The notes under the pieces: generated by a model
The model's input: only the letters and a program-made list of their open reading frames with translations
What the model was told of the DNA's origin: nothing
The model's database searches: none
Made by a program: the position numbers and the translations under genes
Assembly: GCA_021780035.1 (NCBI GenBank)
Contig: JAJXZO010000148.1
Location: forward strand, 1-34,654
Reading direction: 5' to 3'
Length of the DNA: 34,654 nt
Source: Pseudomonadota bacterium
Lineage (GTDB): Bacteria; Pseudomonadota; Alphaproteobacteria; Acetobacterales; Acetobacteraceae
Shown: in pieces, positions 9,443 through 28,300 of the stretch
Layout of the letters: every line of letters starts with the position of its first letter
Position numbering within the stretch: position 1 is the first letter of the stretch

Positions 9443-9560
9443 GACGGAACGCATAGGCCGGGCTGGGGCAGGACTCAACGGCACACGCGCGCTCCCGCCC
9501 GCGGCGTCCGCCGAGGCGGCGGCGTGCCGAAGGTTCGATCCGGGATGATTCCTTCGGGGA

Positions 9561-9579
9561 ATGTCCATATAACGGACAT
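9561..9579. promoter_or_regulatory. Inverted repeat, probable IclR operator (regulator side)
   Basis: ATGTCC and GGACAT are perfect 6-bp arms around 7 nt (ATATAAC). The 17-base core TGTCC-N7-GGACA is shared with the site at 9709-9727. It lies upstream of the IclR gene in the divergent IclR-MHS region, the expected place for autoregulation. Operator function is inferred from position and symmetry. Confidence 0.55.
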
Positions 9580-9677
9580 ATATAACGTTTGTGGGATACC
9601 GCTGTCAAGCCAGGCCGGCAGGAATGCGAAGTGATCGTTATCAGTAGTTGAATTTTCGTGCGTGGCGGAATTCGTCA

Positions 9678-9707
9678 TTGACAAGCCTTTTTTGCCGGCG
9701 GAATTAT
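9678..9707 (+). promoter_or_regulatory. Sigma-70-type promoter for the MHS transporter
   Basis: A consensus -35 hexamer TTGACA (9678-9683) is followed after 18 bases by AATTAT (9702-9707), four of six matches to TATAAT. The operator-like repeat 9709-9727 begins two bases after it, over the expected transcription start. Position and direction fit the gene at 9786, with a leader of about 70 bases. Confidence 0.55.
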
Positions 9708-9708
9708 C

Positions 9709-9727
9709 TTGTCCGCAATACGGACAA
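9709..9727. promoter_or_regulatory. Perfect inverted repeat, probable IclR operator (transporter side)
   Basis: TTGTCCG-CAATA-CGGACAA: 7-bp perfect arms with a 5-nt spacer, centred just downstream of the -10 box of the transporter promoter. This is the best-formed site in the window, and binding there would block transcription start. The arms share TGTCC/GGACA with 9561-9579. Confidence 0.65.
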
Positions 9728-9785
9728 AAGCCAGTCGCACCCATGGCCCTGCCGTGGAACGGAACGGCGCACAGGGAGGACGGCG

Positions 9786-11108: not shown

Positions 11109-11144
11109 TCCGGTACCCCACTCCAACCTGGTGCGAGTCACCCC

Positions 11145-12308: not shown

Positions 12309-12310
12309 CC

Positions 12311-12327
12311 CCCGCGGCGCCCGCGGG
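12311..12327 (+). terminator. Small GC-rich hairpin after LivK-like gene
   Basis: CCCGCGG and CCGCGGG form a perfect 7-bp stem with a 3-nt loop, three bases after the stop at 12308. There is no T-run. It could slow RNA decay or partly stop transcription, keeping the binding-protein transcript more abundant than the lyase transcript. Confidence 0.35.
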
Positions 12328-12373
12328 CATGGGTGCCGTCCTTCCTCTTGAGTGACAACAAAGGAGTGCCGAC

Positions 12374-13270
12374 ATGCAAACGCGACTGAAGGGCGTCATC
12401 CCCGCCCTCGTCACACCCTTCGACTCCGACGGCGAGATCGACGAGGCCGCCTTCCGCGCCCAGGTCCGGTTCATGCTGGGCAAGGGCGTGCACGGCGTCT
12501 GCGTCGGCGGGTCCACCGGCGAGGGCTATGCGCTGGAGACGGCGGAATTGCGCCGCCTGACCGCCGCCGCCGTGGAGGAGGTGGCGGGGCGCATCCCCGT
12601 GGTGGCGGGCATCATCGCCAACTCCACCCGCGAGGTGATCGCCCGCGGCCGCGCGGTGGCCGACCTTGGCATCGAGGCGATCCAGGTCACGCCCACCTTC
12701 TACGTGTTCCAGACCGACGAGGAATCGCTGTTCGGCTACTTCAAGGAGATCTGGGAGAGCGTGGGCAAGCCGGTGCTGCTCTACAACGTCATTCCCTGGA
12801 ACCTGCTTTCCACCGATTTCGTGCTGCGCATCCTGAACGACATTCCGGGAGTCGTCGGCATCAAGCAAAGCGGCGGGGACATCCACCGCATGGCGGAGAT
12901 GCTTCTGCACGTGCCCGAGGGCAAGGTGATTCTCGCCGCCATCGACGGCCTGCTCTATCCCTGCTTCGCCGTCGGCGCGCACGGCACGCTGGCGGCCTCG
13001 CCCACCGCGGCGCCGGGGCCGGTGGTGGCGCTGTGGGATGCGGTGCAGGCGGGCGATCACGCCAAGGGCATGGCCATCCACAGGAGCCTGCTGGAGTTCT
13101 GGCGGAAGATGCCGCACGCCAATCTGCCGGCCTGCGTCAAATACTGCCTAGAACTGCAGGGATGCCGCTCCGGCAAGCCGCGGCGGCCGATGCCTTATCC
13201 GGGCGCCGCCGAGCAGGCGGTGATCGCGCCCTTGCTGCGGGCGCTACTCGCCTACGACCGGACGCTCTGA
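12374..13270 (+). CDS. DapA-family class I lyase (2-keto-acid aldolase/dehydratase type), copy 1
   Basis: A cytoplasmic TIM-barrel protein of 298 residues in the dihydrodipicolinate synthase / N-acetylneuraminate lyase family. It keeps the substrate-carboxylate loop GGSTGE (45-50), the catalytic Tyr137 in LLYNVIPW, and the Schiff-base Lys164 in VVGIKQSGGD. The YN-V-P-x-R-T motif, whose Arg holds the aspartate semialdehyde in real DapA, is replaced by YNVIPWN. It is therefore probably not lysine biosynthesis but a pyruvate- or 2-keto-acid-forming aldolase or dehydratase. The start has AAAGGAG nine bases upstream. It follows MHS1 and LivK1 in the same direction. Two paralogs lie at 22175 and 23175; the copy at 23175 has the similar YNVIPQN form. 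Confidence 0.92.
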   Translation: MQTRLKGVIPALVTPFDSDGEIDEAAFRAQVRFMLGKGVHGVCVGGSTGEGYALETAELRRLTAAAVEEVAGRIPVVAGIIANSTREVIARGRAVADLGIEAIQVTPTFYVFQTDEESLFGYFKEIWESVGKPVLLYNVIPWNLLSTDFVLRILNDIPGVVGIKQSGGDIHRMAEMLLHVPEGKVILAAIDGLLYPCFAVGAHGTLAASPTAAPGPVVALWDAVQAGDHAKGMAIHRSLLEFWRKMPHANLPACVKYCLELQGCRSGKPRRPMPYPGAAEQAVIAPLLRALLAYDRTL

Positions 13271-13287
13271 GGGGGACGGAAACGGGG

Positions 13288-13312
13288 GTCCGGGGACCAT
13301 CGGTCCCCGGAC
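13288..13312. terminator. Long perfect hairpin after DapA-like copy 1
   Basis: GTCCGGGGACC and GGTCCCCGGAC form a perfect 11-bp stem with a 3-nt loop (ATC), 17 bases after the stop at 13270. It lacks a T-run. As a hairpin it would work in both directions; here it probably marks the end of the MHS1-LivK1-lyase transcript before the promoter at 13372. A repeated intergenic palindrome is the alternative. Confidence 0.5.
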
Positions 13313-13371
13313 GAACCGGGGCGGCGCCCTGACGGAACTCCGGCCTGCGTGCCTCGCGCGAGTTCGGAGAG

Positions 13372-13402
13372 TTGACTTATGCGGACCGATATTCCGTATA
13401 AT
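13372..13402 (+). promoter_or_regulatory. Promoter with an operator-like repeat in its spacer, for the flavoenzyme gene
   Basis: TTGACT (13372-13377) and a perfect TATAAT (13397-13402) are separated by 19 bases. The spacer holds ATGCGGA-CCGATAT-TCCGTAT (13379-13399), an inverted repeat with six of seven bases paired, overlapping the -10 box. The long spacer and the repeat suggest a regulated promoter. The gene starts at 13458. CGGA/TCCG arms are shared, in the opposite orientation, with the IclR-type sites elsewhere in the cluster. Confidence 0.5.
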
Positions 13403-13457
13403 GGGATGAAAGACCGGCCGTGGGGCGCCGGACGGGAGTGGCGGGGGAGACGCGGGA

Positions 13458-14870
13458 ATGCCGACGAAGTCGGACCTGGTGTGTGCGCGGGCGGAGAACG
13501 TGTTCGAGCCGCTCGGCACCATGCTGGGCACGCGCTTTTCCATCTCTCCGGCGGTGCGCGAGCACCACAGCCACGGCGAGGGCCTGCCGGCGGCGGGCAT
13601 GCCCGACGGTGTCGCCTTTCCCGAGAGCACCGCGGAAGTGGCCGCGATCGTGCGGATCTGCCGTGACGCCGTGGTGCCTATCGTAGGCTTCGGCGCGGGA
13701 TCGTCGCTCGAGGGACACGTCGCCGCGGTGCGGGGCGGCATCTCGGTGGATTTCACCGGCATGAACCGCATTCTCGACGTCTCGGCCGCGGCGCTCGACT
13801 GCCGGGTGGAAGCCGGCGTCACGCGGGAACAGCTCAACGCCGATCTGCGCTCGCAGGGGCTGTTCTTCCCGGTCGATCCCGGCGCCGACGCCACGCTCGG
13901 CGGCATGGCGGCGACGCGGGCCTCGGGCACCACGACGGTGCGCTACGGCACCATGCGCGAGAACGTGCTCGGCCTCACCGTGGTCATGCCCGACGGCACG
14001 GTGATCCGCACCGGCGGGCGGGCGCGCAAGTCGGCGGCCGGGCTCGATTTAACGCGGCTGTTCGTCGGCAGCGAGGGCACGCTCGGGCTGATCACCGAAG
14101 TCGCCTTGCGGCTCTACGGCCTGCCGGAGACGATCACCGCTGCGGTCTGCCAGTTCGAGAGTTTGCGCGGCGCGGTGGAGACGGTGGTGGCCGCGCTGCA
14201 GTTCGGCCTGCCGCTCGCGCGCATGGAACTTCTCAACGCGCTGCAGATGCGCGCCTGCATCCGCTACGCCGACCTTAGCGAGTTCGCGGACAAGCCGACG
14301 CTGTTCCTGGAGTTCCACGGCAGCGAATCCTCGGTGGCCGAGCAGGTGGAGACGATGCAGGCGCTGTGCTCGGAAGGCGGCGGCGAGGGATTTCGCTTCG
14401 CCAGCCGTCCGGAGGACCGCACGCGGCTGTGGAAGGCGCGTCACGACAACTACTACGCCTGCATGGCCCTGGCTCCGGGGCGGAAGAACATGGGCACCGA
14501 CGCCTGCGTGCCGATCTCCGAGCTTGCCTCGTGCATCATGGAGACGGAGCAGGACGTCGAACGCACCGGCCTGGTGGCGCCGATCGTCGGCCATGTGGGC
14601 GATGGCGCTTTCCATCTCGGCATCATGTTCGACCCGGACGATCCCGACGAGGTGCGCCGGGCAGAGGCGCTGGCGCGGCGGACCGGCGAGCGGGCGATCC
14701 GGATGGGGGGCACCTGCACCGGCGAACACGGCATCGGCCTGCACCGGCGCGAACTTCTGGAACTGGAGCACGGGGCGGCGGTGGGGGTCATGCGCACCAT
14801 CAAACGGGCACTCGACCCGCTCGGCATCATGAATCCCGGCAAGATGCTGAACGACGGGACGGCGGAGTAA
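13458..14870 (+). CDS. FAD-linked 2-hydroxy-acid dehydrogenase (GlcD / D-lactate dehydrogenase family)
   Basis: A 470-residue flavoenzyme of the vanillyl-alcohol-oxidase fold, likely oxidising a D-2-hydroxy acid to the 2-keto acid and passing electrons to cytochrome c or the quinone pool. The FAD-binding N-terminal half is clear: PIVGFGAGSSLEGH (74-87), DPGADATLGGMAATRASGTT (140-159) with RYGTMRENVLGL after it, and VGSEGTLGLITEV. The C-terminal cap has GHVGDGAFHLGI and GEHGIGLHRRE, holding the His and Glu residues used for metal and substrate in this family, and ends LDPLGIMNPGKML. No membrane helix is present. The start has GGGGGAGA upstream. It stands alone between two transcription-signal regions inside module 1. 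It may supply or consume the 2-keto acid handled by the DapA-like lyases; substrate unknown. Confidence 0.92.
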   Translation: MPTKSDLVCARAENVFEPLGTMLGTRFSISPAVREHHSHGEGLPAAGMPDGVAFPESTAEVAAIVRICRDAVVPIVGFGAGSSLEGHVAAVRGGISVDFTGMNRILDVSAAALDCRVEAGVTREQLNADLRSQGLFFPVDPGADATLGGMAATRASGTTTVRYGTMRENVLGLTVVMPDGTVIRTGGRARKSAAGLDLTRLFVGSEGTLGLITEVALRLYGLPETITAAVCQFESLRGAVETVVAALQFGLPLARMELLNALQMRACIRYADLSEFADKPTLFLEFHGSESSVAEQVETMQALCSEGGGEGFRFASRPEDRTRLWKARHDNYYACMALAPGRKNMGTDACVPISELASCIMETEQDVERTGLVAPIVGHVGDGAFHLGIMFDPDDPDEVRRAEALARRTGERAIRMGGTCTGEHGIGLHRRELLELEHGAAVGVMRTIKRALDPLGIMNPGKMLNDGTAE

Positions 14871-15023: not shown

Positions 15024-16208
15024 ATGCCGACACGTCGCCAGAACCCGTCGTGCCGCGGCGGTAGATTTTCCCGCCGGGCTGTCCTCGGCAGCGGGCTTGC
15101 CGCTGCCTCCGCCGCGCTGTTGCCCGCAGCCGTGCGGGCCGCGCCCTCCGGGGCGCCGATCCCGATCGGCTGCTCGGCGGCGCTCACCGCGCAGTTCGCC
15201 CAAAACGGCCTGTGGATGAAGCAGGGCGTCAGCCTGGCCGCCAAACAGATCAACGACAAGGGCGGCGTCAAGGGCCGGCCGGTGCAGGTGTTCTTCGAGG
15301 ACGACCAGGGCCCGAACCCCACCGCGGCTTCCAACGCCGTCATCAAGCTGCTGACGCAGGACAAGGTGGTGGCGGTGATCGGTCCCCACTTCACTCCCGG
15401 CGTCCTGCCGGTCGAGCCGATGCTCTCCCAGTACAAGGTGCCCGCCCTCACCGGTGCCTCCGGCCCGGTGGTGACGCAGCAGAACAACCCGTACGTGTTC
15501 CGCGTCCGCCTCGACGACGCCACCGGCGCGGTGCTGCTGGTGAAGTACGTGCTCGAGAGCCTGAAGTGGAAGAAGATCGGCCTCGACTACGTCAACACCG
15601 CCTTCGGGCAGAGCGGCATCGCCGCGGTGAAGGAGGCGCTGAGCGCGCGCGGCGTCACCCCGGTGGCGACGCAGACGCATCTCGACAGCACCAAGGACTT
15701 CACCTCGCAACTGCTCACCTTCAAGCAGGCGGGAGTGGACGGCATCATCGTCTGGACCGACGATGCGCCGAGCGGGCTCCTGGTGAAGCAGATGAAAACC
15801 CTGGGCGTGAAGTTCGGCCTGGCCGGCTCCACCACTTTCAGCCAGCCGCCGTTCCTGGCGCTGGCGGGCGACGCCGCGAACGGGGTTTATTCCGTTACCG
15901 ATTTCGTGCAGTCGAACCCCAACCCGCGCATCACCGAATGGAAGAAGGTCTATCACGCCGTCTATAACGAAGACCCGGAACTCTACGCCACCACCTACTA
16001 CGACGCGATGAACATCCTCGCGCTCGCCATGGGGCAGGTCGGGGAAATCAGCGGACCCGCCATCCAGGAGGCCCTGACCAAGGTGAAGGACTACCAGGGC
16101 ATCATGACCAGCTACACCTGGAGCAAGAACGGCGATATGGTTCACTCGGGGCTGATCGCTGAGGTGAAGGGCGGGGCGCCCCAGGTCATCGAGACGGTCA
16201 AGGAATAG
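15024..16208 (+). CDS. LivK-type ABC substrate-binding protein, second copy
   Basis: A periplasmic binding protein of 394 residues, the recognised first gene of the livHMGF operon. The signal peptide has a Tat motif (FSRRAVLGSGLAAASAALLP, with the twin Arg), cleaved near AAVRA-APSG. The mature chain, from APIPIGCSAALTAQF, has the same landmarks as the copy at 11145: DDQGPNPTAAS, IGPHFTPG, NPYVFRVRLDDATG, DYVNTAFGQSGI and TWSKNGDMVHSG. Ribosome binding site GGAGG lies ten bases before the ATG. livH begins six bases after its stop, so co-transcription is certain. By position it is the regular partner of the permeases. The ligand is probably a small carboxylate or amino acid, not determined. Confidence 0.95.
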   Translation: MPTRRQNPSCRGGRFSRRAVLGSGLAAASAALLPAAVRAAPSGAPIPIGCSAALTAQFAQNGLWMKQGVSLAAKQINDKGGVKGRPVQVFFEDDQGPNPTAASNAVIKLLTQDKVVAVIGPHFTPGVLPVEPMLSQYKVPALTGASGPVVTQQNNPYVFRVRLDDATGAVLLVKYVLESLKWKKIGLDYVNTAFGQSGIAAVKEALSARGVTPVATQTHLDSTKDFTSQLLTFKQAGVDGIIVWTDDAPSGLLVKQMKTLGVKFGLAGSTTFSQPPFLALAGDAANGVYSVTDFVQSNPNPRITEWKKVYHAVYNEDPELYATTYYDAMNILALAMGQVGEISGPAIQEALTKVKDYQGIMTSYTWSKNGDMVHSGLIAEVKGGAPQVIETVKE

Positions 16209-16214
16209 GGTGCC

Positions 16215-17096
16215 GTGTCGGCGACGGTTCTCCAACTCGTCCTGGGCGGGCTTGCCATGGGCGCGGTCTACGCGCTCGTGGCCCTGGGATTCACGCTGAT
16301 CTGGAATGCTGTCGGCATCGTCAACTTCGCCCAGGGCGACCTGGTGATGCTTGGCGCCTACGTGGTGGTCGGCTCGTGCTTCAACGTCTGGCACCTGCCG
16401 ATCGGCCTCGACCTGCTGGTGATGCTGGGCGTCATGGCGGTATTCGGCCTGGCGTTCGCCGTTTTCGTCTACTCCCCGGTGCGCAACGCACCGCAGTTGT
16501 CGGCGATCGTGGCGACGCTGGGGCTCTCGATGGTGCTGGAGAACTCCGTCGTCCTGGTCTGGGGGCCGGAGCCGCTTTCCTTCGGCGGCCCGCTGGGCAA
16601 TGCGACGGTGCAGATACTGGGCGCGAAAATCTATGCCCAGTATGTGCTGATCCTGGGCGTGCTCCTGCTCATGATGCTCACGCAGGAGGGGATGTTCCGC
16701 TTCACCTCGATCGGGCGGGGCATGCGCGCCACCGCCCAGGATGCCGAGGCGGCGCGGCTGATGGGGATCCGCACGTCGCGCATCACCGCGCTCATCTTCA
16801 TCTACGCCTCGGTGCTGGCCGGCATCGCCGGCTGGCTGCTGGCGCCGGTGTTCTACGTCTCCGCTGACATGGGGGTGAAGGTGTCGCTGGAGGCGTTCGC
16901 CTCCTGCATCCTCGGCGGCTTCGGCAGCATTCCGGGCGCGCTGATCGGTGGGCTGCTGCTTGGCGTCATCGAATCCCTGGGCGGATTCTACATCTCCTCG
17001 GAATACATCGACGTCATCGCGTTCGGCGTGCTGTTCGTCACCCTGGTGGTGCGCCCGGAGGGCATCTTCGGCGAACCGCAACTGGAGCGGCCGTGA
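16215..17096 (+). CDS. livH: Branched-chain-amino-acid-type ABC permease LivH
   Basis: An inner-membrane permease of 293 residues with about eight hydrophobic helices. The N-terminus (LQLVLGGLAMGAVYALVALG, then GFTLIWNAVGIVNFAQGDLV) is the LivH hallmark: in this family the first helix pair is followed by N-F-A-x-G-D. The EAA-like cytoplasmic loop lies around GMRATAQDAEAARLMGI, which docks with the ATPase. The C-terminus has the KVSLEAFASCILGGFGSIPG stretch, typical of LivH. GTG start at 16215 with AAGGAATAGGG upstream. Its stop overlaps livM. No sign of damage. Confidence 0.95.
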   Translation: MSATVLQLVLGGLAMGAVYALVALGFTLIWNAVGIVNFAQGDLVMLGAYVVVGSCFNVWHLPIGLDLLVMLGVMAVFGLAFAVFVYSPVRNAPQLSAIVATLGLSMVLENSVVLVWGPEPLSFGGPLGNATVQILGAKIYAQYVLILGVLLLMMLTQEGMFRFTSIGRGMRATAQDAEAARLMGIRTSRITALIFIYASVLAGIAGWLLAPVFYVSADMGVKVSLEAFASCILGGFGSIPGALIGGLLLGVIESLGGFYISSEYIDVIAFGVLFVTLVVRPEGIFGEPQLERP

Positions 17097-18081
17097 TGGA
17101 AGAACGGAGATTGTGGGGGCAGCTCGCGGCGCTGGCGACATTCGCGGTGGCGCTGGCGGTCGGTCTGCCGCGGCTCGTCGATCCCTACTACGTCCATGTT
17201 GTCGACGTGACGCTGATCAACCTGGTGATCGCCATCGGCCTCAACCTGGTGCTTGGCTTCGGCGGCCAGATCTCCTTCGCGCAGTCGGCATTCTTCGGCA
17301 TCGGCGCCTATACCTTCGCGTTCCTCCAGGCACACGGCGCACCGGCCGCGCTTGCCGCGGTGGCGGCGGTGCTCTTCACCTCGCTCGTCGGAGCACTGCT
17401 GGGCTGGCCGGCGCTGCGCCTCAAGGGCCACTATCTGGCGCTGGCGACGCTCGCCTTCAGCCTCATCATGGGCGAGCTGATGGTCGATCTCGATTTCATC
17501 ACGGGCGGCGCCAACGGCATGATGAACATCGTCGGCATCGGCCTCGCCCGCGACGACGTGGCGATGCTGCCGGTTCTGGTCGCGGTGGCCGCTCTCGGCC
17601 TCGGGGCGGCGATGATTTTCGCCGCGAGCCCGGCAGGACTTCGCGTGCGTGCCTTCCGCGACAACGCCATCGCCGCGCAGGCGGCGGGAGTGAACGTGCG
17701 GTCGCTGAAGATCGGCCTGTTCATCGCTTCGGCGGCCTACGCCGGGGTCGGGGGCGTCTGCTACTGCTGCCTTCTCGGCTACATCAGCCCCGACGTGTTC
17801 GCGTGGCAGACCACGTTCGCCTATCTGGCCATGGTGGTGGTCGGCGGGCTCGGCAGCAACCTCGGCGCGCCGCTGGGCGCGGCGCTCTACACGCTGGTGC
17901 CGGAATGGCTGCGGTTCCTGCAGGAAGCCTATTTCGTCATCTTCGGTGCGGTGGTCATTGCCGTGATCGCGCTGCTGCCAGGCGGCATGGCGGGCGTGGT
18001 GGGCTGGGTGTTCGGGCGCATCTGGCAACGATCGAAGTCGGTGCTGCGGTTGCACGCAGGGCCGACAACGGAGAGCGGATC

Positions 18082-18085
<4 letters not shown>
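17096..18085 (+). CDS. livM: Branched-chain-amino-acid-type ABC permease LivM
   Basis: Second permease subunit, 329 residues from ATG 17096 (a GTG one codon earlier, at 17093, is the alternative; both overlap the livH stop). About nine hydrophobic helices. The segment INLVIAIGLNLVLGFGGQIS (followed by FAQSAFFGIGAYT) is the LivM hallmark, with G-Q-x-S-x-G/A-Q-x-x-F-x-G-I-G-A. The docking loop RVRAFRDNAIAAQAAGVNVR and the VGGLGSNLGAPLGAAL segment are typical. The stop overlaps the GTG of the fused ATPase gene (GTGA), so the three are translationally coupled. Confidence 0.95.
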
Positions 18086-19538
<1,453 letters not shown>

Positions 19539-19560
<22 letters not shown>

Positions 19561-20360
19561 GCCGGTTCCGCCGGGCGATAGCCGAGCGCCAGCGAGATGG
19601 CATTGGCGGAATGCATCGCCACTTTCGCCAGGCCGTCGATCTCGCTCTGCGGCAGGCGCCAGAACGGCCCGGTGATGCTGATGGCGGCGACCACGCGGCC
19701 GCTCTGGTCGCGGATCGGCGCGCCGACGCAGCGGAGCCCTGGCTGGTGCTCGCCTTCGTCGATGGCGTAGCCGCGGCCGCGGATCTCGTTGAGCTGTTCG
19801 CGCAGCACGCGGGGATCGGTGATGGTGGAATCGGTGAAGCGGGCAAGCCCCGCCGCGATCACCCGTTCGACGGTGGCTTCGCTCTGGTAGGCGAGGATCA
19901 CCTTGCCGACGGACGTGCAGTGCACCGGCGCCTGCTCGATCATCGCGGTGGGCTGTCCCTTTTCGGGCGAGGCGTCGGCGCGGTGGATCACCAGCGCGCG
20001 CTGGCCGTCGAACACGGCGAGGTGCACGGCCTGGCCGCTCTGGCGGGTGAGGGCATCGACGAACGGGCGCGCCTCGCGGTGCAGTTCCATATTGGCGAGG
20101 ACGATGTTGCCGAGTTCGAACAGCTTCATGCCCAGGCGGTAGCGGTCGCGCTCGCGGTCCTGGTCGAGCAGCCCGGCCTCGCGCATGGCGGCGAGCAGGC
20201 GGTGCGCCGTGCTCTTGGGAAAACCCGTGCGCTGACCTATGTCGGCGAGTGACAAGGCGCGGTCGACGGTGGAGAATGCATCGAGGACGCGCACGACCTT
20301 GGTGAGCGACTTGAGTCCTTCGTCGGCGCGGCGGGGCGGCCTGGAAATTTCACGATTCAT
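19539..20360 (-). CDS. IclR-family transcriptional regulator (module 2)
   Basis: A 273-residue regulator. Winged helix-turn-helix at about 15-80 (LSLADIGQRTGFPKSTAHRL and DRYRLGMKLFELGN). Effector domain at about 90-260, with VHCTSVGKVILAY, GYAIDEGEHQPGLRCVGAPI and VVAAISITGP. The start at 20360 (MNREISRPPR) is chosen over the open frame to 20759, because the extra upstream part is Arg-rich non-protein and the regulatory repeats lie there. It is a paralog of the regulator at 8573 (same motifs, different wing). The last 22 bases overlap the end of the livGF gene on the other strand. It is divergent from the MHS transporter at 20780 and probably regulates it. Confidence 0.93.
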
Positions 20361-20363
20361 ACC

Positions 20364-20393
20364 CGGTATCCCAGAAAGTGGAATTCGATACCG
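20364..20393. promoter_or_regulatory. Inverted repeat just upstream of the second IclR gene
   Basis: CGGTATC and GATACCG are perfect 7-bp arms with 16 bases between (20371-20386), starting three bases before the regulator's start codon. Its place and symmetry fit an autoregulatory operator on the IclR transcript. The arms differ from the TCCG/CGGA class elsewhere, so it may bind the same protein differently or another factor. Confidence 0.4.
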
Positions 20394-20474
20394 CATAACC
20401 AGGAATGCGGCAAGGCCGATATCGTTGTCCCTTCCACCCTCACCGTTGGTTCCCGGGAGAAGTGCGCGCGTATC

Positions 20475-20517
20475 TTCCGCCAGACGGAATTTTTCATCAT
20501 GGTCCGATATGCGGGAC
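20475..20517. promoter_or_regulatory. Pair of IclR-type inverted repeats in the IclR2-MHS2 divergent region
   Basis: The first site, TTCCG-CCAGA-CGGAA (20475-20489), is a perfect 5-bp-arm repeat with a 5-nt spacer. The second, GTCC-N8-GGAC (20502-20517), reads GGTCCGATATGCGGGACA and is imperfect when read as TCCG-N5-CGG. The first has the geometry of the 9709 site. They lie 10 to 53 bases upstream of the -35 box of the transporter promoter. The 419-base gap 20361-20779 also holds the IclR2-side repeat and the promoter; no further gene is seen in it. Confidence 0.5.
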
Positions 20518-20527
20518 AAAACTCTGA

Positions 20528-20556
20528 TTGACGGGACGAGATCGGTTTCGTAAACT
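20528..20556 (+). promoter_or_regulatory. Sigma-70-type promoter for the second MHS transporter
   Basis: TTGACG (20528-20533) and TAAACT (20551-20556) are separated by 17 bases: five of six and four of six matches to consensus at ideal spacing. The leader to the ATG at 20780 would be about 215 bases, rather long, and Arg/Ala-coding noise fills it. Confidence 0.5.
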
Positions 20557-20779
20557 TTCGCCAACGTTCCGGGATGGATGGCGTGCCAGAACCGCTCGCG
20601 GAAATGCCTGTCACCGACAGCGCCGCTGCCTGCTCCGCAGTATCGCCGGCCGCCGCCCGCCGGAACGTGTTGCTTCCCGCGCGCTCCGGCGCGCGCGTGC
20701 GAACCGCATTGCGGGACCGCTTTCGGCATGGCCTCCGCCGTGCGCCGACAAGCCAACAATAAAGCAACGGAGTAGACAG

Positions 20780-22126
20780 ATGGAAGAAAATACGGCCGTT
20801 ATCGCGCCTGCGCCGTCAGCCAGGGCCTTCCAGGAAAGCAGCCTTGCCACGGTCGTCGGCTCGAGCATGATCGGCACCACGATCGAGTTCTATGATTTCT
20901 TCATCTATGGCACGGCAGCCGCCTTGGTATTTCCGCAGCTTTTCTTCCCGACTCTGAAGCCGATCTACGGGCTGATGGCGGCCTATGCCACGCTGGCGAT
21001 TCCCTTCACGACCCGGCCGATCGGGGCGGTGCTGTTCGGCCATTACGGCGATCGCTACGGCCGCAAGAAGATGCTGATTCTGGCACTCCTGGTGATGGGG
21101 CTTTCCACCTTCTTCATGGGGCTGGTGCCCGGCTACAGCACCATCGGCGTATGGGCGCCGATCGTCGTCATTCTGCTCAGGCTGCTGCAGGGATTCGCCC
21201 TTGGCGGCGAATGGGGCGGCGCCGCGGCGATGGTCATCGAATACGCGCCGCCGAACCGGCGCGGCTTCTACGGCACGTTCGTGCAGCTTGGCAACGTTGT
21301 CGGCCTGTTCACCTCGGTTCTGGTCTTCGCCGCCATTCCGCGCGCGAGCCTGCTGGCCGGCGGCTGGCGCATTCCGTTCCTGGTCAGCATCGTCGCCCTG
21401 GCGGTCGGGCTCTATATCCGCTCGCACATCAACGAAACGCCGCTGTTCCGCGATCTTACCGCGAAGAAGGCGGAGCGGCGCGCGCCGGTGATGGACATCC
21501 TGCGCTGGGGCAAGCGTGCGGTGCTGCTGGCCATGGGCGTGCGGACGGGCGAAATCATTCTTGGCTGGCTCGTCATCGGCTTCCTGCTTTCCTATGCCAC
21601 CCGCAACGTCGGCTTCAATTCCACGCAGGTGCTGTGGGTCATCCTTACTGCGAGCGTGGTTGACATGGTCTCGGTGCCGCTGGCGGGCTACATCTCCGAC
21701 CGCGTCGGCCGCCGCCCGGTATTCCTGTTCGGCGCCATCGTTGCCGCGCTGATGGCCTTCCCGATGTTCTGGCTCACGGACACCGGCAGCTATCCGCTGT
21801 TCGTGCTGGCCGTGGCTTTCACCTTCGCCTTCGGCAACGGTGTCATGTTCGCCGTGGAACCGGCGTTCTTCTCGGAGGCGTTCGCCACCGGCGTGCGCTA
21901 CACGGGCATTTCGCTCGGCTTCCAGTTCGCCAACATCATCGGCGGACTCACGCCGCTGATCGGCACCTGGCTGCTGCAGCTTTCCGGCGGCAAATCGTGG
22001 ATCGTCTCGCTGTTCCTGCTGACGGGTTGCGTCATCACCATCGGCTGCGCGGTGGCGATGCGCGAGCGCGCCGGCGTGCGGCTCGACATCGAGCAGGTCG
22101 AGCAGCAGCAAGGCGTGGCCGACTGA
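20780..22126 (+). CDS. MHS-family MFS transporter, module 2
   Basis: An inner-membrane metabolite:H+ symporter of 448 residues, about 12 helices. The MHS signature GTTIEFYDFFIYGTAAALVF is at about 35-54, with the D-R-x-G-R-K loop in GHYGDRYGRKKMLILALLVM. The second-half loop YISDRVGRRPVFLFG matches the family. It is a paralog of the 9786 transporter, with the same ATASVGIGxxxPxY-type landmarks GYSTIGVWAPI and GGEWGGAAAM. The start at 20780 has GGAG eight bases upstream. Two DapA-like genes follow in the same direction (48 bases to the next start), so transport and aldol chemistry are co-transcribed. The substrate is probably a carboxylic acid; nothing in the sequence fixes which. Confidence 0.93.
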   Translation: MEENTAVIAPAPSARAFQESSLATVVGSSMIGTTIEFYDFFIYGTAAALVFPQLFFPTLKPIYGLMAAYATLAIPFTTRPIGAVLFGHYGDRYGRKKMLILALLVMGLSTFFMGLVPGYSTIGVWAPIVVILLRLLQGFALGGEWGGAAAMVIEYAPPNRRGFYGTFVQLGNVVGLFTSVLVFAAIPRASLLAGGWRIPFLVSIVALAVGLYIRSHINETPLFRDLTAKKAERRAPVMDILRWGKRAVLLAMGVRTGEIILGWLVIGFLLSYATRNVGFNSTQVLWVILTASVVDMVSVPLAGYISDRVGRRPVFLFGAIVAALMAFPMFWLTDTGSYPLFVLAVAFTFAFGNGVMFAVEPAFFSEAFATGVRYTGISLGFQFANIIGGLTPLIGTWLLQLSGGKSWIVSLFLLTGCVITIGCAVAMRERAGVRLDIEQVEQQQGVAD

Positions 22127-22174
22127 AACGGCACCTCCAGTGCCGATCCCTTCCAACCCGACAAGGAGAGACTG

Positions 22175-23095
22175 ATGTTCGACAAAGCCAAGTACGGCCG
22201 GATCCTGGTGCCGATCCTCACGCCCTACGCCGCCGACCAGAGCGTCGACCACACCGCGCTGAAGAAGCTCGCCGTCCACCTGGTGGACAACAAGCTCTGC
22301 GACTCGCTCGTGCTAAGCGGCACGACCGGGGAATTCCACACCCAGCGCTTCGAGGAACGCGTGGCGATCTTCGAATCGGTGAAGGCGGCGGTGGCGGGGC
22401 GGGTGCCGCTCATCGCCGGCGTCGGCTCGGCCTCCACGATCGAGACGGCGGCGCTGGCGAAGAAGGCCGTCGAGATGGGCTTCGACACGGCGATGGTCGT
22501 GGCGCCGTACTACACCAAGCCCACGCAGCGCGAGCTTTATGCGCACTACACCGAAATCGCCCGCGCCGTGCCGACGCTCAACATCATGGTCTACAACATC
22601 CCGATCTTCACCGGCGTGAACGTCGATCCGGCGACGCTGGGCGCGCTCGCCACCCTCCCCAACATCGTCGCGGTGAAGGAAGAGGCCGAACTGAACCCGA
22701 AGCAGATCACCGGGTTCCTGAATGCCACGCCGGAGAGCTTCATCATCTACAACGGCGACGACACGATGATTCTGGAGGCGTATGCGCAGGGCGGCGACAG
22801 GCGTATCGGCGGCGTCATCTCCGGCGCCTCGCATGCGGTCGGCAACTACATCCGCACGATGATCGAGACGTTCCTGGCCGGCCGGATCGACGAGGCCGCC
22901 GGCATGCAGCGCAAGCTCTATCCGCTGCTGAAGATCATGGGCCAGAACGGCAGGACCAACCCCGCGCCGCTGTGGAAGGACGCGATGAAGCTGCTCGGCG
23001 TCGATGCCGGCATTCCGCGCCGGCCGCTGAGCGCCGGCACGCCGGAGGAAGTCGCGGAGGTCCGCAAGGCGATGGTGACGTTCGGCCTGCTGTAA
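22175..23095 (+). CDS. DapA-family class I lyase, copy 2
   Basis: A 306-residue TIM-barrel protein. It shows GTTGE (49-53), Tyr140 in IMVYNIPIFTG, and Lys168 in IVAVKEEAE, the Schiff-base lysine. The GTTGEF loop is the most DapA-like of the three copies, but the motif Y-N-V-P-x-R-T of lysine-pathway enzymes is changed to YNIPIFTG, without the Arg. It is therefore more likely a 2-keto-acid aldolase or dehydratase. The ribosome binding site AAGGAGA lies six bases before ATG. It sits between the MHS transporter and a third copy and is surely in the same operon. Confidence 0.92.
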   Translation: MFDKAKYGRILVPILTPYAADQSVDHTALKKLAVHLVDNKLCDSLVLSGTTGEFHTQRFEERVAIFESVKAAVAGRVPLIAGVGSASTIETAALAKKAVEMGFDTAMVVAPYYTKPTQRELYAHYTEIARAVPTLNIMVYNIPIFTGVNVDPATLGALATLPNIVAVKEEAELNPKQITGFLNATPESFIIYNGDDTMILEAYAQGGDRRIGGVISGASHAVGNYIRTMIETFLAGRIDEAAGMQRKLYPLLKIMGQNGRTNPAPLWKDAMKLLGVDAGIPRRPLSAGTPEEVAEVRKAMVTFGLL

Positions 23096-23174
23096 GCGCG
23101 GGCCCGGCGGAAGCGGTGGCCGTTTACCGGCGACGGAGGACGGCCGCCGCGCCGATGAGGAAGGAAAACGATCG

Positions 23175-24068
23175 ATGAAGAAGGGCGAGCGCTTCAGGGG
23201 CATCACGCCCCCGGTCCTCACCACGTTCAGCGCCGACGAGAAGATCGATACCGAACGCTACCGGCGCGAGGTGCGCTACCTGATCGATGCGGGCATCGAC
23301 TGCATCAGTCCCGGCGGCAGCACAGGCGAAAGCGCCGCGCTGTCCGATGACGAACTGGTGCAGTTGATCGGGGTTATCCGCGAGGAGAACCGCAAGGGCA
23401 TCCCGGTCGTCGCCGGCGTGGCGCGCTGCTCGACGCAGGCGGCCATCGCCACAGCGCTCCGCGCCAAGGCAGCCGGTGCGGATGCCCTGATGGTGACGCC
23501 CACCTTCTACAACGTGCTCGTCCCGGACGACAACGGCAACGAGAAATTCTACCGCGCCATCTCCGACGCCGTCGGCCTGCCTATCATCGTCTACAACGTC
23601 ATCCCGCAGAACGAGATTTCCTCGGAACTGTTCTCGCGACTGCTCGAGATCGAAAATGTTGTCGGCGTGAAGCAGAGCGTTGGCGGCATCATGGCGATGT
23701 ACGACATGAAGGTGATGTGCGGCGAACGCGGCATGGTGTTCGCGGCGACCGACGAGATGATCTACTCCTGCTTCGCGGCGGGTGCCGATGGCGCGATCTC
23801 CGCGATCCTGTCGCTGTTTCCGCGGCTTTGCGTGAAGATGTGGCGGCTTGCCAATGCGGGACGGCATGACGAGGGCCTTAAGATCCAGAACCGCCTCTAT
23901 CCGCTGTGGAAGATCGTGCGCGGGCCGCAGTTCCCTGCGCGCATGAAGGCCGCGGCGAAACTGCTGGGGCGCGACTGCGGCTATTCGAAAAGCCCAATGA
24001 CGGAGGTGAGCGGCGAGACGATCGGGCGCATGGCGGCGATCCTGCGCACGGTTCGCGACGAAGACTGA
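23175..24068 (+). CDS. DapA-family class I lyase, copy 3
   Basis: A 297-residue TIM-barrel protein of the same family. GGSTGES (47-53), Tyr140 in IIVYNVIPQN, Lys166 in VVGVKQSVGG. It is closer to copy 1 than to copy 2 in the active-site segments (YNVIPxN, GVKQS / GIKQS), suggesting that copies 1 and 3 act on similar substrates in the two modules. The Arg motif of real DapA is absent. GGAAGGAAAACGATCG precedes the ATG. It ends the module 2 operon, followed by a hairpin. Alternative roles are N-acetylneuraminate-lyase-like or 5-keto-4-deoxyglucarate dehydratase-like; sequence alone does not decide. Confidence 0.92.
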   Translation: MKKGERFRGITPPVLTTFSADEKIDTERYRREVRYLIDAGIDCISPGGSTGESAALSDDELVQLIGVIREENRKGIPVVAGVARCSTQAAIATALRAKAAGADALMVTPTFYNVLVPDDNGNEKFYRAISDAVGLPIIVYNVIPQNEISSELFSRLLEIENVVGVKQSVGGIMAMYDMKVMCGERGMVFAATDEMIYSCFAAGADGAISAILSLFPRLCVKMWRLANAGRHDEGLKIQNRLYPLWKIVRGPQFPARMKAAAKLLGRDCGYSKSPMTEVSGETIGRMAAILRTVRDED

Positions 24069-24275: not shown

Positions 24276-25547
24276 ATGCCTTTGAACCGGCGCCAATTCG
24301 TGGCTGGCATCGGACTTGCCTCGACCGGCGCGCTCGTGCCCGCGGCAGGCCAGGCCGCCGAGCTCACGCTCAATTTTTTGTTTTCCCAGCCGCCGAGCAC
24401 ATGGGACGCGGTAATTGCGGCCTTCGAGAAGGCGAACCCCGGCATCAGGATTGCACGCCAGAACGTGCCGTTCGACGCGCTGAATGCGGCCGTGCAGTCG
24501 CGTATCGGTCAGAAGGACAGCAGTATCGACGTGTTCGGCTGCGACGAGCCGCGCGTGCCGACGTTCTCGCATCGCGGCTACCTGGTCGATTTGAGCGGGA
24601 TGCGCCCCGCCTTCGAAAAATCCGTGTCGAGCGCGGCGATAGAAGCCGTCAGTTTCAAAGGCAAAATCTGGTCGTTCCCGCTTTGGACGTCGACCCAGGT
24701 GCTGTTCTACAACAAGGACCTGCTCGCCAAGGCCGGCCTGCCCGAGCCGCCGCTTGACGTAAACAAACGGATGACCTGGGAGCAGGTGCTGGAGGCCGGG
24801 GCGAAGGCACAGAAGGCCGGCGCGAAGTGGGGGCTCGGCTTCGACCAGGTGGACCGCTACTACCAGTTGCAGGCGCTCTACGAATCGAGGGGCGCCGGTC
24901 CCGGCCTGACCGGCCCCGACCTGCTGACGCCGGCTATCACGACACCGAAATGGATCGAGACGACCGAATGGTACGGCAGGCTGTTCTCGAGCGGGCTGGC
25001 GCCGCGCGGCATCCCGCCGGAACAGATGCCGCCGCTCTTCGCCGCCGGGCAGGTGGCGTATTTCTACGGCGGGCCGTGGCAGATGGGGTTGTTCTTCAAG
25101 ACCGCGGGCCTGAACTTCGGCATGGCGGCGGCGCCGTATTTCGCTGACGGCAAACCCTGCACACCGACCGACAGCTGGTCGATGGCGGTCAACCCCTACA
25201 GCAACAACCGCGAGGCGGCGCTCAAGTTCGCCTCGTTCATGACGCTGGACGACGTCGGCGCACTGGCATCGACGCAGAAGATGCCGCTGCCGCCGGCGAA
25301 CAAGACGGCGTTCGTGGAATACCTGAAGCGGATCGAGGCGGAAGGGGGCGCGGTTACGAAGGGTTATGGCACGCTCGTGCGGTACGAGCTTGCCAACACG
25401 GCGGTGCATCGCCCGCGCACCATCGGCTGGGTCGATTTCGAGCAGATAATGAACAAGTCATTCAGTGACGTGCGGAATGGCGCCGACGCCACGAACACGT
25501 TGAAGGCGGCCGACAAGCAGTTGCGGATCGTCTTCAGCCGGCTGTGA
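24276..25547 (+). CDS. ABC sugar-type extracellular substrate-binding protein (family 1, UgpB/MalE-like)
   Basis: A periplasmic binding protein of 423 residues. N-terminus MPLNRRQFVAGIGLASTGAL has a twin-Arg Tat signal, cleaved near GQAAEL. The mature part has the layout of solute-binding family 1: DAVIAAFEKANPGIRI, DVFGCDEPRVPTFSHRGYLV with DLSGM, PLWTSTQVLFYNKDLL, and PTDSWSMAVNPYSNNREAAL, a common C-terminal stretch. The start at 24276 (MPLNRR) has GGGAGGGGAAG upstream. Its stop overlaps the first permease start (GTGA). It probably binds a saccharide, polyol or, given the downstream nucleoside hydrolase, a nucleoside; this last is inference. Confidence 0.93.
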   Translation: MPLNRRQFVAGIGLASTGALVPAAGQAAELTLNFLFSQPPSTWDAVIAAFEKANPGIRIARQNVPFDALNAAVQSRIGQKDSSIDVFGCDEPRVPTFSHRGYLVDLSGMRPAFEKSVSSAAIEAVSFKGKIWSFPLWTSTQVLFYNKDLLAKAGLPEPPLDVNKRMTWEQVLEAGAKAQKAGAKWGLGFDQVDRYYQLQALYESRGAGPGLTGPDLLTPAITTPKWIETTEWYGRLFSSGLAPRGIPPEQMPPLFAAGQVAYFYGGPWQMGLFFKTAGLNFGMAAAPYFADGKPCTPTDSWSMAVNPYSNNREAALKFASFMTLDDVGALASTQKMPLPPANKTAFVEYLKRIEAEGGAVTKGYGTLVRYELANTAVHRPRTIGWVDFEQIMNKSFSDVRNGADATNTLKAADKQLRIVFSRL

Positions 25548-26449
25548 GAACCGCCGTGGCGGATGGTGGTCGACGCCGCCCGCCACGCCTGGGCCGGCGG
25601 CAGGGCGAATGGCTGGCCGCGGCGGGCTTTCTCGCGCCGGCGCTGCTGGCGGTGGTGGTGCTGCGGCTGTGGCCCACGCTGCAGGCCGCGCTGGTGGCGT
25701 TCGGGGTCGGGTTGAGCAAGGGGCCGTCGCTGGCGAACTTCCGTTTCCTGTTCGCCGATCCCGAATTCACCGGTTCGCTGCTGACGACGGCGCTTTATTC
25801 CCTGCTGGTCAACCCGATCCAGATCGCGCTGGCGCTGGCGCTCGCGGTGCTGCTCAACCGGGCGCTTCCCGGCGTAGGGCTGTGGCGGACGCTGGTGCTG
25901 CTGCCCGTGGCGGTGCCGCAGGTGGTGTCGGCGGTGATCTGGGGCGTGGCGATGCGTCCGGACGGGCCGCTCAACGCGCTGTTCCAGGCTTGCGGCTTCG
26001 CGCAGCAGCCGTTCCTGACCTCGCCGCGACAGGCGCTCGGATCGATCATCATCATCGTGAGCTGGATCGGCGTTGGCTACTGGATGACCTTCCTGATCGC
26101 GGGCATGAAGGACATCCCGACGCAATACTACGAGGCGGCGGCCATCGACGGCGCCAACGCGTGGCAGCGCTTCTGGAAGATCACGCTGCCGCTGCTGCGC
26201 CGGCCGCTCACCTTCGTGCTGGTGGCGGACACCGTCTCCAATTTCCTGGTGTTCGCGCCGGTGCAGGTGCTGACCAAGGGCGGCCCGCAAGGATCGACGA
26301 ACCTGGTGATGAACGAGATCTTCACGCGCGCCTTCGACCAGGGCGACACCGCGGGCGCGGCCGCGGCGACGACGATCCTGGTGCTGGTGGTCGTGGCGGT
26401 GGTGACGATCCAGTTCCGCCTGATGCTGCGGAAGGACGACTTCAGTTGA
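25544..26449 (+). CDS. ABC sugar-type permease 1 (UgpA/MalF-like)
   Basis: An inner-membrane permease of 301 residues, six hydrophobic helices. The EAA loop that docks with the ATPase is EAAAIDGANAWQRFWKITLP (about residues 197-216), followed by LLRRPL. GTG start at 25544 overlaps the binding-protein stop. N-terminus is Arg/Gly-rich before the first helix (WLAAAGFLAPALLAVVVLRL). The stop overlaps the TTG start of the second permease. Member of the MalFG-type family for carbohydrates and related substrates. Confidence 0.94.
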   Translation: MRTAVADGGRRRPPRLGRRQGEWLAAAGFLAPALLAVVVLRLWPTLQAALVAFGVGLSKGPSLANFRFLFADPEFTGSLLTTALYSLLVNPIQIALALALAVLLNRALPGVGLWRTLVLLPVAVPQVVSAVIWGVAMRPDGPLNALFQACGFAQQPFLTSPRQALGSIIIIVSWIGVGYWMTFLIAGMKDIPTQYYEAAAIDGANAWQRFWKITLPLLRRPLTFVLVADTVSNFLVFAPVQVLTKGGPQGSTNLVMNEIFTRAFDQGDTAGAAAATTILVLVVVAVVTIQFRLMLRKDDFS

Positions 26450-27309
26450 GCGCCGCCGCTGTGCCGCGACGGCCGAGCCGCGGCCGCGCAGGGGCCGCGC
26501 TTCTCCTCGTCCTGGCCATGCTGGCGGCGCTTTATTCGATGATGCCGCTGATCTGGGCGGTGGCCAGCGGGCTGCGGCCGGGAGCGGAGATTTTCCGCTA
26601 TCTGTCGCCGCTGACCATCTGGAGCCTGCTGCCGCGGCACCCGACACTGGCCAACCTGCACGTGCTGTGGAGCGGGCCGTTCGCCCGCGCCATGGCGAAC
26701 TCGATCTTCGTTGCCGGGACGACCGTGGTGGTGGGACTGCTGCTGTGCTCGACCGCGGCCTTCGCGCTGGCGGTACTGCGCTTTCCGGGCAAGAACGCGG
26801 TGTTCGCGATCATGGTGGTGAGCTTCCTCATCCCCTTCGATTCCATCGCGGTGCCGCTGTCTTCGCTGTTCCGAGGCTTCCACCTCGACAACACCTACAC
26901 GGGGCTGGTGCTGCCAGGGCTCGGCAACGGGCTGGCGGTGTTCCTGTTGCGGCAATTCTTCCTCGGTATTCCGGGCGTGCTCAGCGAGGCGGCAATGGTG
27001 GACGGGCTGGGGTGGTGGGGGATCTATACCCGCATCTACCTGCCGCTTTCGCGCCCGGCGCTGATCGGCGCGGGACTGATTTTGTTCGTCTTCCAGTGGC
27101 AGGCGTACCTCTGGCCGCTGCTGATCGCGCCGGCGCCGAATGTGCACGTGGTGGCGATTGCCATCGCCAACTTCGCCGGCGAGTTCCAGGTGGATTACGG
27201 CGAGATGTTCGCGGCCACGAGCTTCGCGGCGCTGGTGCCGATGCTGATCATGCTGTTCTTCCAGCGCTACTTCGCCGCCTCCCTGGCCACGTCAGGCAGC
27301 AAGGAGTGA
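26446..27309 (+). CDS. ABC sugar-type permease 2 (UgpE/MalG-like)
   Basis: Second inner-membrane permease, 287 residues from TTG 26446, overlapping the previous stop (TTGA). A GTG at 26461 is an alternative. Six hydrophobic helices. The docking loop is EAAMVDGLGWWGIYTRIYLP, followed by LSRPAL, and the MalG-type FLIPFDSIAVPL segment lies before it. It is the last transport gene; the nucleoside hydrolase follows after 7 bases. No ATP-binding gene of the MalK/UgpC type is present within the cluster, so the importer must borrow an ATPase encoded elsewhere. Confidence 0.92.
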   Translation: MSAAAVPRRPSRGRAGAALLLVLAMLAALYSMMPLIWAVASGLRPGAEIFRYLSPLTIWSLLPRHPTLANLHVLWSGPFARAMANSIFVAGTTVVVGLLLCSTAAFALAVLRFPGKNAVFAIMVVSFLIPFDSIAVPLSSLFRGFHLDNTYTGLVLPGLGNGLAVFLLRQFFLGIPGVLSEAAMVDGLGWWGIYTRIYLPLSRPALIGAGLILFVFQWQAYLWPLLIAPAPNVHVVAIAIANFAGEFQVDYGEMFAATSFAALVPMLIMLFFQRYFAASLATSGSKE

Positions 27310-27316
27310 CAAGACC

Positions 27317-28300
27317 GTGCGTATGATCCTCGATTGCGACCCCGGCAACGGCGTTCCCGGTTCCGACGTGGACGACGGGCTGGCTCTGGGCCTGATTCTG
27401 CGCAGCCCGGAGTTCGAGATGGAAGCGGTGACGGTTGTCGGCGGCAACACGGCGGTGGATGTCGGCACACCGGCCGGGCTTGCGGTGCTGGAGGCGGCCG
27501 GGTCCAGTGTGCCGCTGTACCGGGGCGCGTCGCGGCCGCTGGCCGAGGATCCCGCTCCGTGGCGGGCGAGCCTTGACGGCAGGCGCACCGTGGAGCCGGC
27601 CGTTTCCGTGTATCGCGGCACGTCCTATCCGGCGCCCACCCGGCGTCCCGCGCCCGGCTCGGCGGCGGAGGCGATCGTGAACAGCGTGAATGCGCATCCC
27701 GGCGAGGTGACGATCGCCGCCGTCGGCCCGCTGACGAACGTGGCGCAGGCGATCCTCATCGACCCCGACCTGCCGCGGAAAGTGCGGCAGATCGCCATCA
27801 TGGGCGGCGCCTTCAACGTGTGGCACCGGCCGCAGGAGTTGAACGTCTGCTACGACCCGGAGGCGGCGCACATCGTCGTGACCTGCGGCGCGCCGGTGGT
27901 GATGGTGCCGCTGGACACGACGCTGCGCACCGGGATGGCGCGGGACGATGTCGAGAGGCTTATCGCCTCGGCCGATCCCCTCGCGCACTACCTCGGCGTG
28001 ACCAGCGATCCGTGGCTGCGCTGGGTGGGGGCCGTGCGCAACCGCGCCAGCTTTCCGCTGCACGATCCGCTCGCCGTGGCGGTGCTGCTGGAACGCGGCT
28101 TCGTTACGGTGGAACGGGCGCATGTCGATATCGAGCTGGTCGGCCGGTTGACCCGTGGCCGGCCTGTTTCGTGGCGGCCCGGCGATCCGTTCTCCTCCTG
28201 CGGCCTGCGTCTGCCCGAAGTGCCGCAGATCGAGATCGTTACCGACGTGGACAACGACGCATTCAAGGCGTTCCTGATGGATCGTCTGCTGGGAGAATGA
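27317..28300 (+). CDS. Nucleoside hydrolase of the inosine/uridine-preferring family
   Basis: A 327-residue hydrolase that would cleave the N-glycosidic bond of a nucleoside to base and ribose. The family's calcium-binding Asp motif is at the N-terminus as ILDCDPGNGVPGSDVDDGLA, an expanded form of D-x-D-P-G-x-D-D. Other landmarks are AAVGPLTNVAQA, IMGGAF, ELNVCYDPEAA, and FPLHDPLAVA (the His-Asp motif near the C-terminus). GTG start at 27317 with AAGGAG upstream; an ATG two codons later is an alternative. It follows the permease by 7 bases and faces cyoE convergently. I infer that it acts on the importer's substrate in the cytoplasm; no secretion signal is present. Confidence 0.92.
   Translation: MRMILDCDPGNGVPGSDVDDGLALGLILRSPEFEMEAVTVVGGNTAVDVGTPAGLAVLEAAGSSVPLYRGASRPLAEDPAPWRASLDGRRTVEPAVSVYRGTSYPAPTRRPAPGSAAEAIVNSVNAHPGEVTIAAVGPLTNVAQAILIDPDLPRKVRQIAIMGGAFNVWHRPQELNVCYDPEAAHIVVTCGAPVVMVPLDTTLRTGMARDDVERLIASADPLAHYLGVTSDPWLRWVGAVRNRASFPLHDPLAVAVLLERGFVTVERAHVDIELVGRLTRGRPVSWRPGDPFSSCGLRLPEVPQIEIVTDVDNDAFKAFLMDRLLGE

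Follow-up and report, generated by a model that had tools for sequence, protein, structure and literature searches.

The subject of this analysis is a four-gene unit of an alphaproteobacterium of the Acetobacteraceae (GenBank assembly GCA_021780035.1, contig JAJXZO010000148.1), in which the genes of a sugar-type ATP-binding cassette (ABC) importer are followed directly by a gene for a nucleoside hydrolase. The whole stretch of DNA that was analyzed, 34,654 nucleotides in length, is called the window in the following. Within it the unit occupies positions 24276-28300 of the + strand and consists of the following genes, in this order:

24276..25547, + strand, ATG start: family 1 (MalE/UgpB-like) solute-binding protein (SBP) with a twin-arginine-like N-terminus
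25544..26449, + strand, GTG start: permease 1 (P1), MalF/UgpA type, with an EAA coupling loop
26446..27309, + strand, TTG start: permease 2 (P2), MalG/UgpE type, with an EAA loop
27317..28300, + strand, GTG start: nucleoside hydrolase (NH) variant whose DPGxDD fingerprint is extended by 7 inserted residues

The genes are tightly joined. The sequence GTGA at 25544-25547 contains both the stop codon of the SBP gene and the start codon of permease 1, TTGA at 26446-26449 connects permease 1 with permease 2 in the same manner, and only 7 bases (27310-27316) separate permease 2 from the NH gene. An earlier note on this DNA had described these overlaps and the short gap, and its coordinates are exact. 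The TTG and GTG starts are predicted from the reading frame and from AG-rich stretches upstream. All four proteins pass the curated Pfam cut-offs, the SBP as SBP_bac_1 (106.6 bits, cut-off 26, 3.2e-30; SBP_bac_8 at 1.2e-29), the permeases as BPD_transp_1 (61.4 bits and 1.3e-16 for permease 1, 32.9 bits and 6.9e-8 for permease 2, cut-off 26.4) and the hydrolase as IU_nuc_hydro (230.9 bits, cut-off 34.2, 3.5e-68). NCBIfam provides no name for any of them, as every score lies under its cut-off, including those of permease 1 to UgpA (121 bits) and MalF (113 bits) and those of permease 2 to GlcU (114 bits) and UgpE (110 bits). A family 1 SBP together with two different MalF/MalG-type permeases, both with EAA-type coupling loops, places the importer in the CUT1 family. 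The N-terminus of the SBP is presumably a signal of the twin-arginine-like type, on account of its RR motif.

The closest relative of the SBP in a search of genome contigs (locus L035, 79% identity) comes from an uncultured Acetobacteraceae draft and stands in the same order SBP-P1-P2-NH. A genus mate, G665, was obtained from the search of whole genomes, and its locus L064 appears to be the same place as L035. In L035/L064 the four genes are 78-87% identical to those of the window, with a 4-base overlap between SBP and permease genes and an 8-base gap before the NH gene, the start of the latter being placed by alignment. As the same order and the tight junctions recur in this genus mate, the four-gene arrangement is more than chance. 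Otherwise the SBP type is rare among the genomes searched, since relatives at E 1e-30 were found in few genomes of each draw, namely in 4 of 396 other genomes of the family (G665, G556, G004, G006), in 3 of 384 other genomes of the class (G394, G279, G462) and in none of 397 other genomes of the phylum, these draws overlapping with each other. Plasmids yielded 382 records that match the SBP at E 1e-5; among the best 40 of these 382, Mesorhizobium (twice), Klebsiella and Devosia reach 149-287 bits, and the rest stay at or below 90 bits.

To follow the linkage of importer and hydrolase beyond these close relatives, a tree was calculated from the joined alignments of both permeases, for which 38 loci were tried and 33 rows obtained; L028, L071, L075, L077 and L080 were left out because one or both permeases are lacking, the contig of the NH-linked L028 stopping within permease 1. 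All nine NH-linked rows fall into a single clade of 13 rows, with a support of 94/92, just below the level that the program marks with a star, and the program flags several long branches (L030, L052, L031 and others). Outside this clade, NH linkage was found in none of 20 rows, nine of which came from ATPase searches and were rechecked for an NH by BLAST and the NH profile, some over only 4 kb. The NH label requires three changes on the tree, as compared to a mean of 8.1 after shuffling, and none of 500 shuffles was as low. Seventeen further CUT1 loci from the search of the family served as controls, with about 6 kb per side where the contigs allowed, and the only two with an NH, L066 and L069, both lie inside the clade. 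The linkage spans other genera and families and persists in very different gene orders. The NH comes last in the window and L064 (SBP-P1-P2-NH) and in L044 of G394 (SBP-P1-P2-ATPase-NH), first in L043 of Devosia (NH-SBP-P1-P2-UgpC) and in L066, where two NHs precede the SBP, it is divergent from SBP-P1-P2 in L027, L028, L045 and L046, and L069 has one NH on each flank. Moreover, the NHs of the clade belong to several lineages that are 19-51% identical to each other. The simplest account of this pattern is that the importer repeatedly meets the same kind of cargo, but the same picture would result if the two had been linked once, in an ancestor, and the NH had been exchanged afterwards. The claim of the earlier note that the four genes work together is thus borne out by recurrence in other genera, families and gene orders, and we regard the coupling of importer and NH, which is supported beyond one genome, as the strong part of the case.

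On this basis we propose, as a moderately probable explanation, that the unit encodes a CUT1 importer which runs on a borrowed MalK-type ATPase and whose cargo, nucleosides or other N-ribosides, is cleaved inside the cell by the variant NH. The SBP would capture the ligand in the periplasm and the permease pair would carry it into the cell, powered by a MalK-type ATPase that is encoded elsewhere and belongs to another importer of the same cell. The NH would then split the N-glycosidic bond of the imported compound to yield ribose and base. Both the substrate class and the sharing of an ATPase are what we infer from the surrounding evidence, and several observations weigh against one or the other.

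With respect to the cargo, the solved structures that the SBP matches best belong to binding proteins of the sugar type, mostly of the maltose type (best E 1.5e-20), and no NH was found in the stretch examined at four of the 13 clade rows (L040, L041, L042, L065), which include a unit with an aldo/keto reductase and a unit beside a LacI-type regulator; the importers of the clade may therefore not all take nucleosides. Together with the membership in CUT1, this would agree with an importer for a plain sugar or oligosaccharide, beside which the NH is a neighbour that acts on another pool or on a by-product linked to a sugar. We consider this unlikely, as the linkage recurs across NH lineages and gene orders within the clade and is found in none of the 20 rows outside it.

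A nucleoside as cargo must also be reconciled with the hydrolase itself. Among chains of solved structure it comes closest to cytidine/uridine-specific, plant and RihA-type enzymes (E 5e-39 to 1e-31). Aligned with 1mas and others as well as with 12 further NHs, it displays the conserved elements DCDPG..DD, GPLTN, MGG, ELN and HD. The fingerprint reads DCDPG-NGVPGSDV-DD and is 7 residues longer than the usual DPGxDD, an insertion that also occurs in the NH of the genus mate and in an NH from an E. coli plasmid (39.6% identity). The metal and ribose residues of PF01156 are present, namely the Asp residues within the fingerprint, the Asp that follows the His near the C-terminus and the E-x-N triad. 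Descriptions of the metal and ribose residues and a division into structural groups that is partly based on the β3-α3 loop are available (PMC8910321). Among the group I features, the His before the last metal Asp is present (FPLHDPLAVA), whereas a His in the β3-α3 loop is absent from this NH, which reads WRASLDGRR where most relatives read HG. In RihA this loop His faces the base analogue (PMC2898832), and in group I enzymes it contacts the base (PMC2898832, PMC8910321), so that a standard nucleoside is not assured as substrate of an enzyme lacking it. The ribose and metal side of the NH looks intact and its base side changed, which suggests a non-standard base in the substrate. The genome of the window encodes a second NH (contig C85, L087 7801-8829, - strand), which is 62-65% identical to the importer-linked NHs of G004 and G006.

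Some neighbours in related loci bear on the cargo as well. Molybdenum hydroxylases often oxidize N-heterocycles, and the NH gene of L064 is followed on the same strand by genes for a [2Fe-2S] protein and for a molybdopterin subunit that belongs to the xanthine dehydrogenase superfamily. About 650 bases behind the NH gene of L028 there are genes for a [2Fe-2S] protein, for a cytochrome c and for a molybdopterin subunit, the last of which (61-2392, - strand) is divided between two reading frames, either by a true break or by an assembly error. A BLAST scan of 55 loci, the window among them, with three queries detected molybdenum-hydroxylase genes in L028, in L064 and in L035, which is the same place as L064, but in no other locus; the window itself has none. 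In Mesorhizobium, the importer adjoins a kinase that scores 275.5 bits to ribokinase (cut-off 299.65). These neighbours point to ribose and an N-heterocycle, although their numbers are small. A ComB-like (PF04029) gene also recurs, overlapping the ribokinase-like gene beside the importer on two Mesorhizobium plasmids (L041 7379-9068, L040 375-2071) and lying about 1.5 kb from the second NH near the contig end in L087 (10311-10832, - strand), but its recurrence near a ribokinase-like gene or the second NH yields no function.

A more far-reaching version of the proposed N-riboside import holds that this CUT1 clade switched from sugars to N-ribosides and repeatedly acquired different NHs, that the branch of the window, with its extended fingerprint and the lost base-side His, imports the riboside of a non-standard N-heterocycle whose freed base is oxidized by the molybdenum hydroxylase in the genus mate, and that borrowed ATPases power much of the clade. 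This combination of steps is possible, but we regard it as rather doubtful.

The energization of the importer is the second part of the proposal. As the earlier note had stated, the unit contains no MalK/UgpC-like gene. A search for Walker motifs plus the ABC signature confirmed this; several such genes are found elsewhere in the genome, and the sole match in the window is the open reading frame 16948-19560, which comprises two ABC_tran stretches and a C-terminal domain of the branched-chain amino-acid type and stands behind two BPD_transp_2 permeases. We rejected this ATPase as a partner because of its own preceding permeases and its branched-chain amino-acid type domain. It looks like a LivG-like and a LivF-like ATPase fused in one frame.

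The lack of an ATPase is common among related units. Among 14 clade loci (the 13 tree rows and L028), an ATPase is present within or close to the unit in three (L042, L043, L044), nine have none adjoining in the stretch examined (window, L040, L041, L045, L046, L064, L065, L066, L069), with a UgpC at a distance of 9 kb in L041, and two are cut off too early to judge (L027, L028). Both permeases were detected by BLAST in 13 of the 17 control loci, and a MalK-like gene was present in the stretch examined for four of these 13; among the nine without it, L074 ends at the contig edge behind the permeases, and L066 and L069 belong to the clade. Since the missing ATPase is thus common in the clade and in control loci and is also seen elsewhere in the same genome, we rejected it as a peculiarity of this unit.

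A search of the genome for an orphan MsmX-like ATPase, as the earlier note had advised, found none. There are six OB_MalK matches, four of them above the cut-off. The OB_MalK genes of C176, C230, C212 (18948-20000, in the following C212a) and C154 stand with permeases, as does that of C54, found by protein search, and the gene C212:52521-53594 comes after permeases, so that only the gene of C40, which is cut off at the contig start, is not seen beside permeases of its own. Sharing would therefore have to be with the ATPase of another importer. That this is plausible follows from the frequency of units without ATPase, from published precedents (PMC8603345, PMC7658222) and from the near-complete genome G462 (99%), in which five permeases resemble the NH-linked MalF-type one, as compared to a single OB_MalK ATPase that is divergent beside another SBP-P1-P2 unit. 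The suggestion of the earlier note that the importer may share an ATPase therefore stands as plausible, although the missing gene is no mark of this unit alone.

Candidates for such a partner may be recognized by residues that are conserved in Firmicutes ATPases able to replace MsmX, namely D77, R104, E110 (with one exception) and K154 of MsmX (PMC7658222). At the corresponding positions, the ATPases of C230 and C212a carry D, R, E and K. The set is complete in two of the six ATPases examined of this genome and in two of 14 overall; three or more of the four residues are absent from the ATPases in the units of G394, Devosia and Klebsiella, and the C65 ATPase of G462 and its counterpart in G279 have D, R, E and Q. 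The positions were mapped by their offset from the Walker lysine, which we take to be K43 of MsmX, and all 14 ATPases have the same distance of 93 between this lysine and the signature. We thus consider C230:7503-8555 and C212:18948-20000 as candidate partners, the residues being compatible with sharing but no proof of it.

Several points stand on the other side here. The residue comparison uses offsets instead of a structure and a consensus from Firmicutes ATPases, and C230 as well as C212a already has an importer of its own. Among 16 permeases of the genome that match a MalF-type query, eight are on contigs with a MalK-like match at E 1e-40, and two further ones are close to a less similar ATPase (C110, C36); the remaining six divide into three without ABC ATPase in the stretch examined (C46, the window, as well as C173 and C109) and three whose surroundings are truncated where the contig ends (C34, C201, C45). 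Most of those that can be judged thus do share a contig with an ATPase. A further eight ABC ATPases of G462, less similar but reaching E 1e-40, are possible partners, about six of them with a TOBE_2 domain; four of the eight (C132, C57, C63, C59) may serve other transporter types, which their surroundings resemble. Finally, the genome of the window is 90% complete, as a draft assembly of 2.67 Mb and 253 contigs, and a dedicated ATPase gene could accordingly be missing from the assembly or lie on another contig, as the truncated MalK-type gene of C40 and the ATPases within the Devosia and G394 units might suggest. We regard this as quite unlikely, because the unit is complete here on both sides, with genes on the opposite strand after the NH gene, as read from the layout of open reading frames, and genes of other families before the SBP gene, because no ATPase occurs within 13 kb downstream in the genus mate L064, and because none was found in 19 kb around the unit of the single-contig relative G279.

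The genes before the unit raise a different question. On the same strand, and separated from the SBP gene by a 207-base gap, lie two DapA-family genes and a gene for an MHS-type transporter, and the opposite strand encodes an IclR regulator. It is conceivable that the unit belongs to this cluster and that the DapA-family enzymes process the ribose released by the NH or a related acid. The shared strand and the short distance to the second DapA-family gene would fit, and no sigma-70-type promoter-like site is present between 23900 and 28500, which says little, as shuffled sequences lead to an expectation of only 0.3. In relatives, however, no DapA or MHS match was found beside the unit, with L064 covering only 1.7 kb upstream, and we think that this assignment is very unlikely. 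The first DapA-family gene (22175-23095) reaches 220.9 bits against the NCBIfam dapA cut-off of 206.15, and the second remains under it. The window clusters 8573-14870 and 15024-24068 are alike in that each comprises an IclR gene on the - strand, an MFS/MHS-type transporter, a Peripla_BP_6 binding protein and one or more DapA-family enzymes, so that one looks like a partial duplicate of the other.

Among known systems, UspABC of Mycobacterium tuberculosis resembles the unit in having a CUT1-type SBP and two permeases but no ATPase in the operon (PMC8603345). It differs in that UspC is reported to prefer carbohydrates with an amino group, and the parts of that publication considered here report no nucleoside hydrolase partner (PMC8603345). 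MsmX of Bacillus subtilis is one ATPase that drives several type I importers (PMC7658222), and its four residues recur in C230 and C212a, whereas no stand-alone ATPase was found in the present genome, for which sharing is a proposal. The unit L043 on a plasmid of Devosia neptuniae (NH-SBP-P1-P2-UgpC) belongs to the same importer clade and is likewise NH-coupled, but its NH comes first and is without the insertion, an ATPase is part of the unit, and it is known here as an annotation. The NHs on plasmids of E. coli and Salmonella (L083 8965-9984, L084 5965-6984) are 39.6% identical to that of the window, and the E. coli copy has the same insertion, but they adjoin a LacI regulator and an MFS transporter instead of an ABC importer. 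PnrA/BmpA-type systems are nucleoside importers in other bacteria; these and NupABC have another type of binding protein and permease and their own ATPase, which presumably sets them apart from the unit. NupABC, the thymidine transporter of Ruegeria pomeroyi, is an alphaproteobacterial nucleoside importer (PMC10130141). A published description of a CUT1-NH unit was not found, as judged by titles and the openings of abstracts, with subscription journals mostly outside the scope of the search.

The substrates of CUT1 importers are usually guessed to be sugars from family membership. Should the present clade import nucleosides or N-ribosides instead, automatic annotations like "sugar ABC transporter" would be wrong for its members. 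As units without ATPase are frequent in the clade, an annotation that demands the full set of genes will miss such importers or call them broken. If the proposed cargo is correct, the linked hydrolases would provide a rule for finding the remaining importers of this kind.

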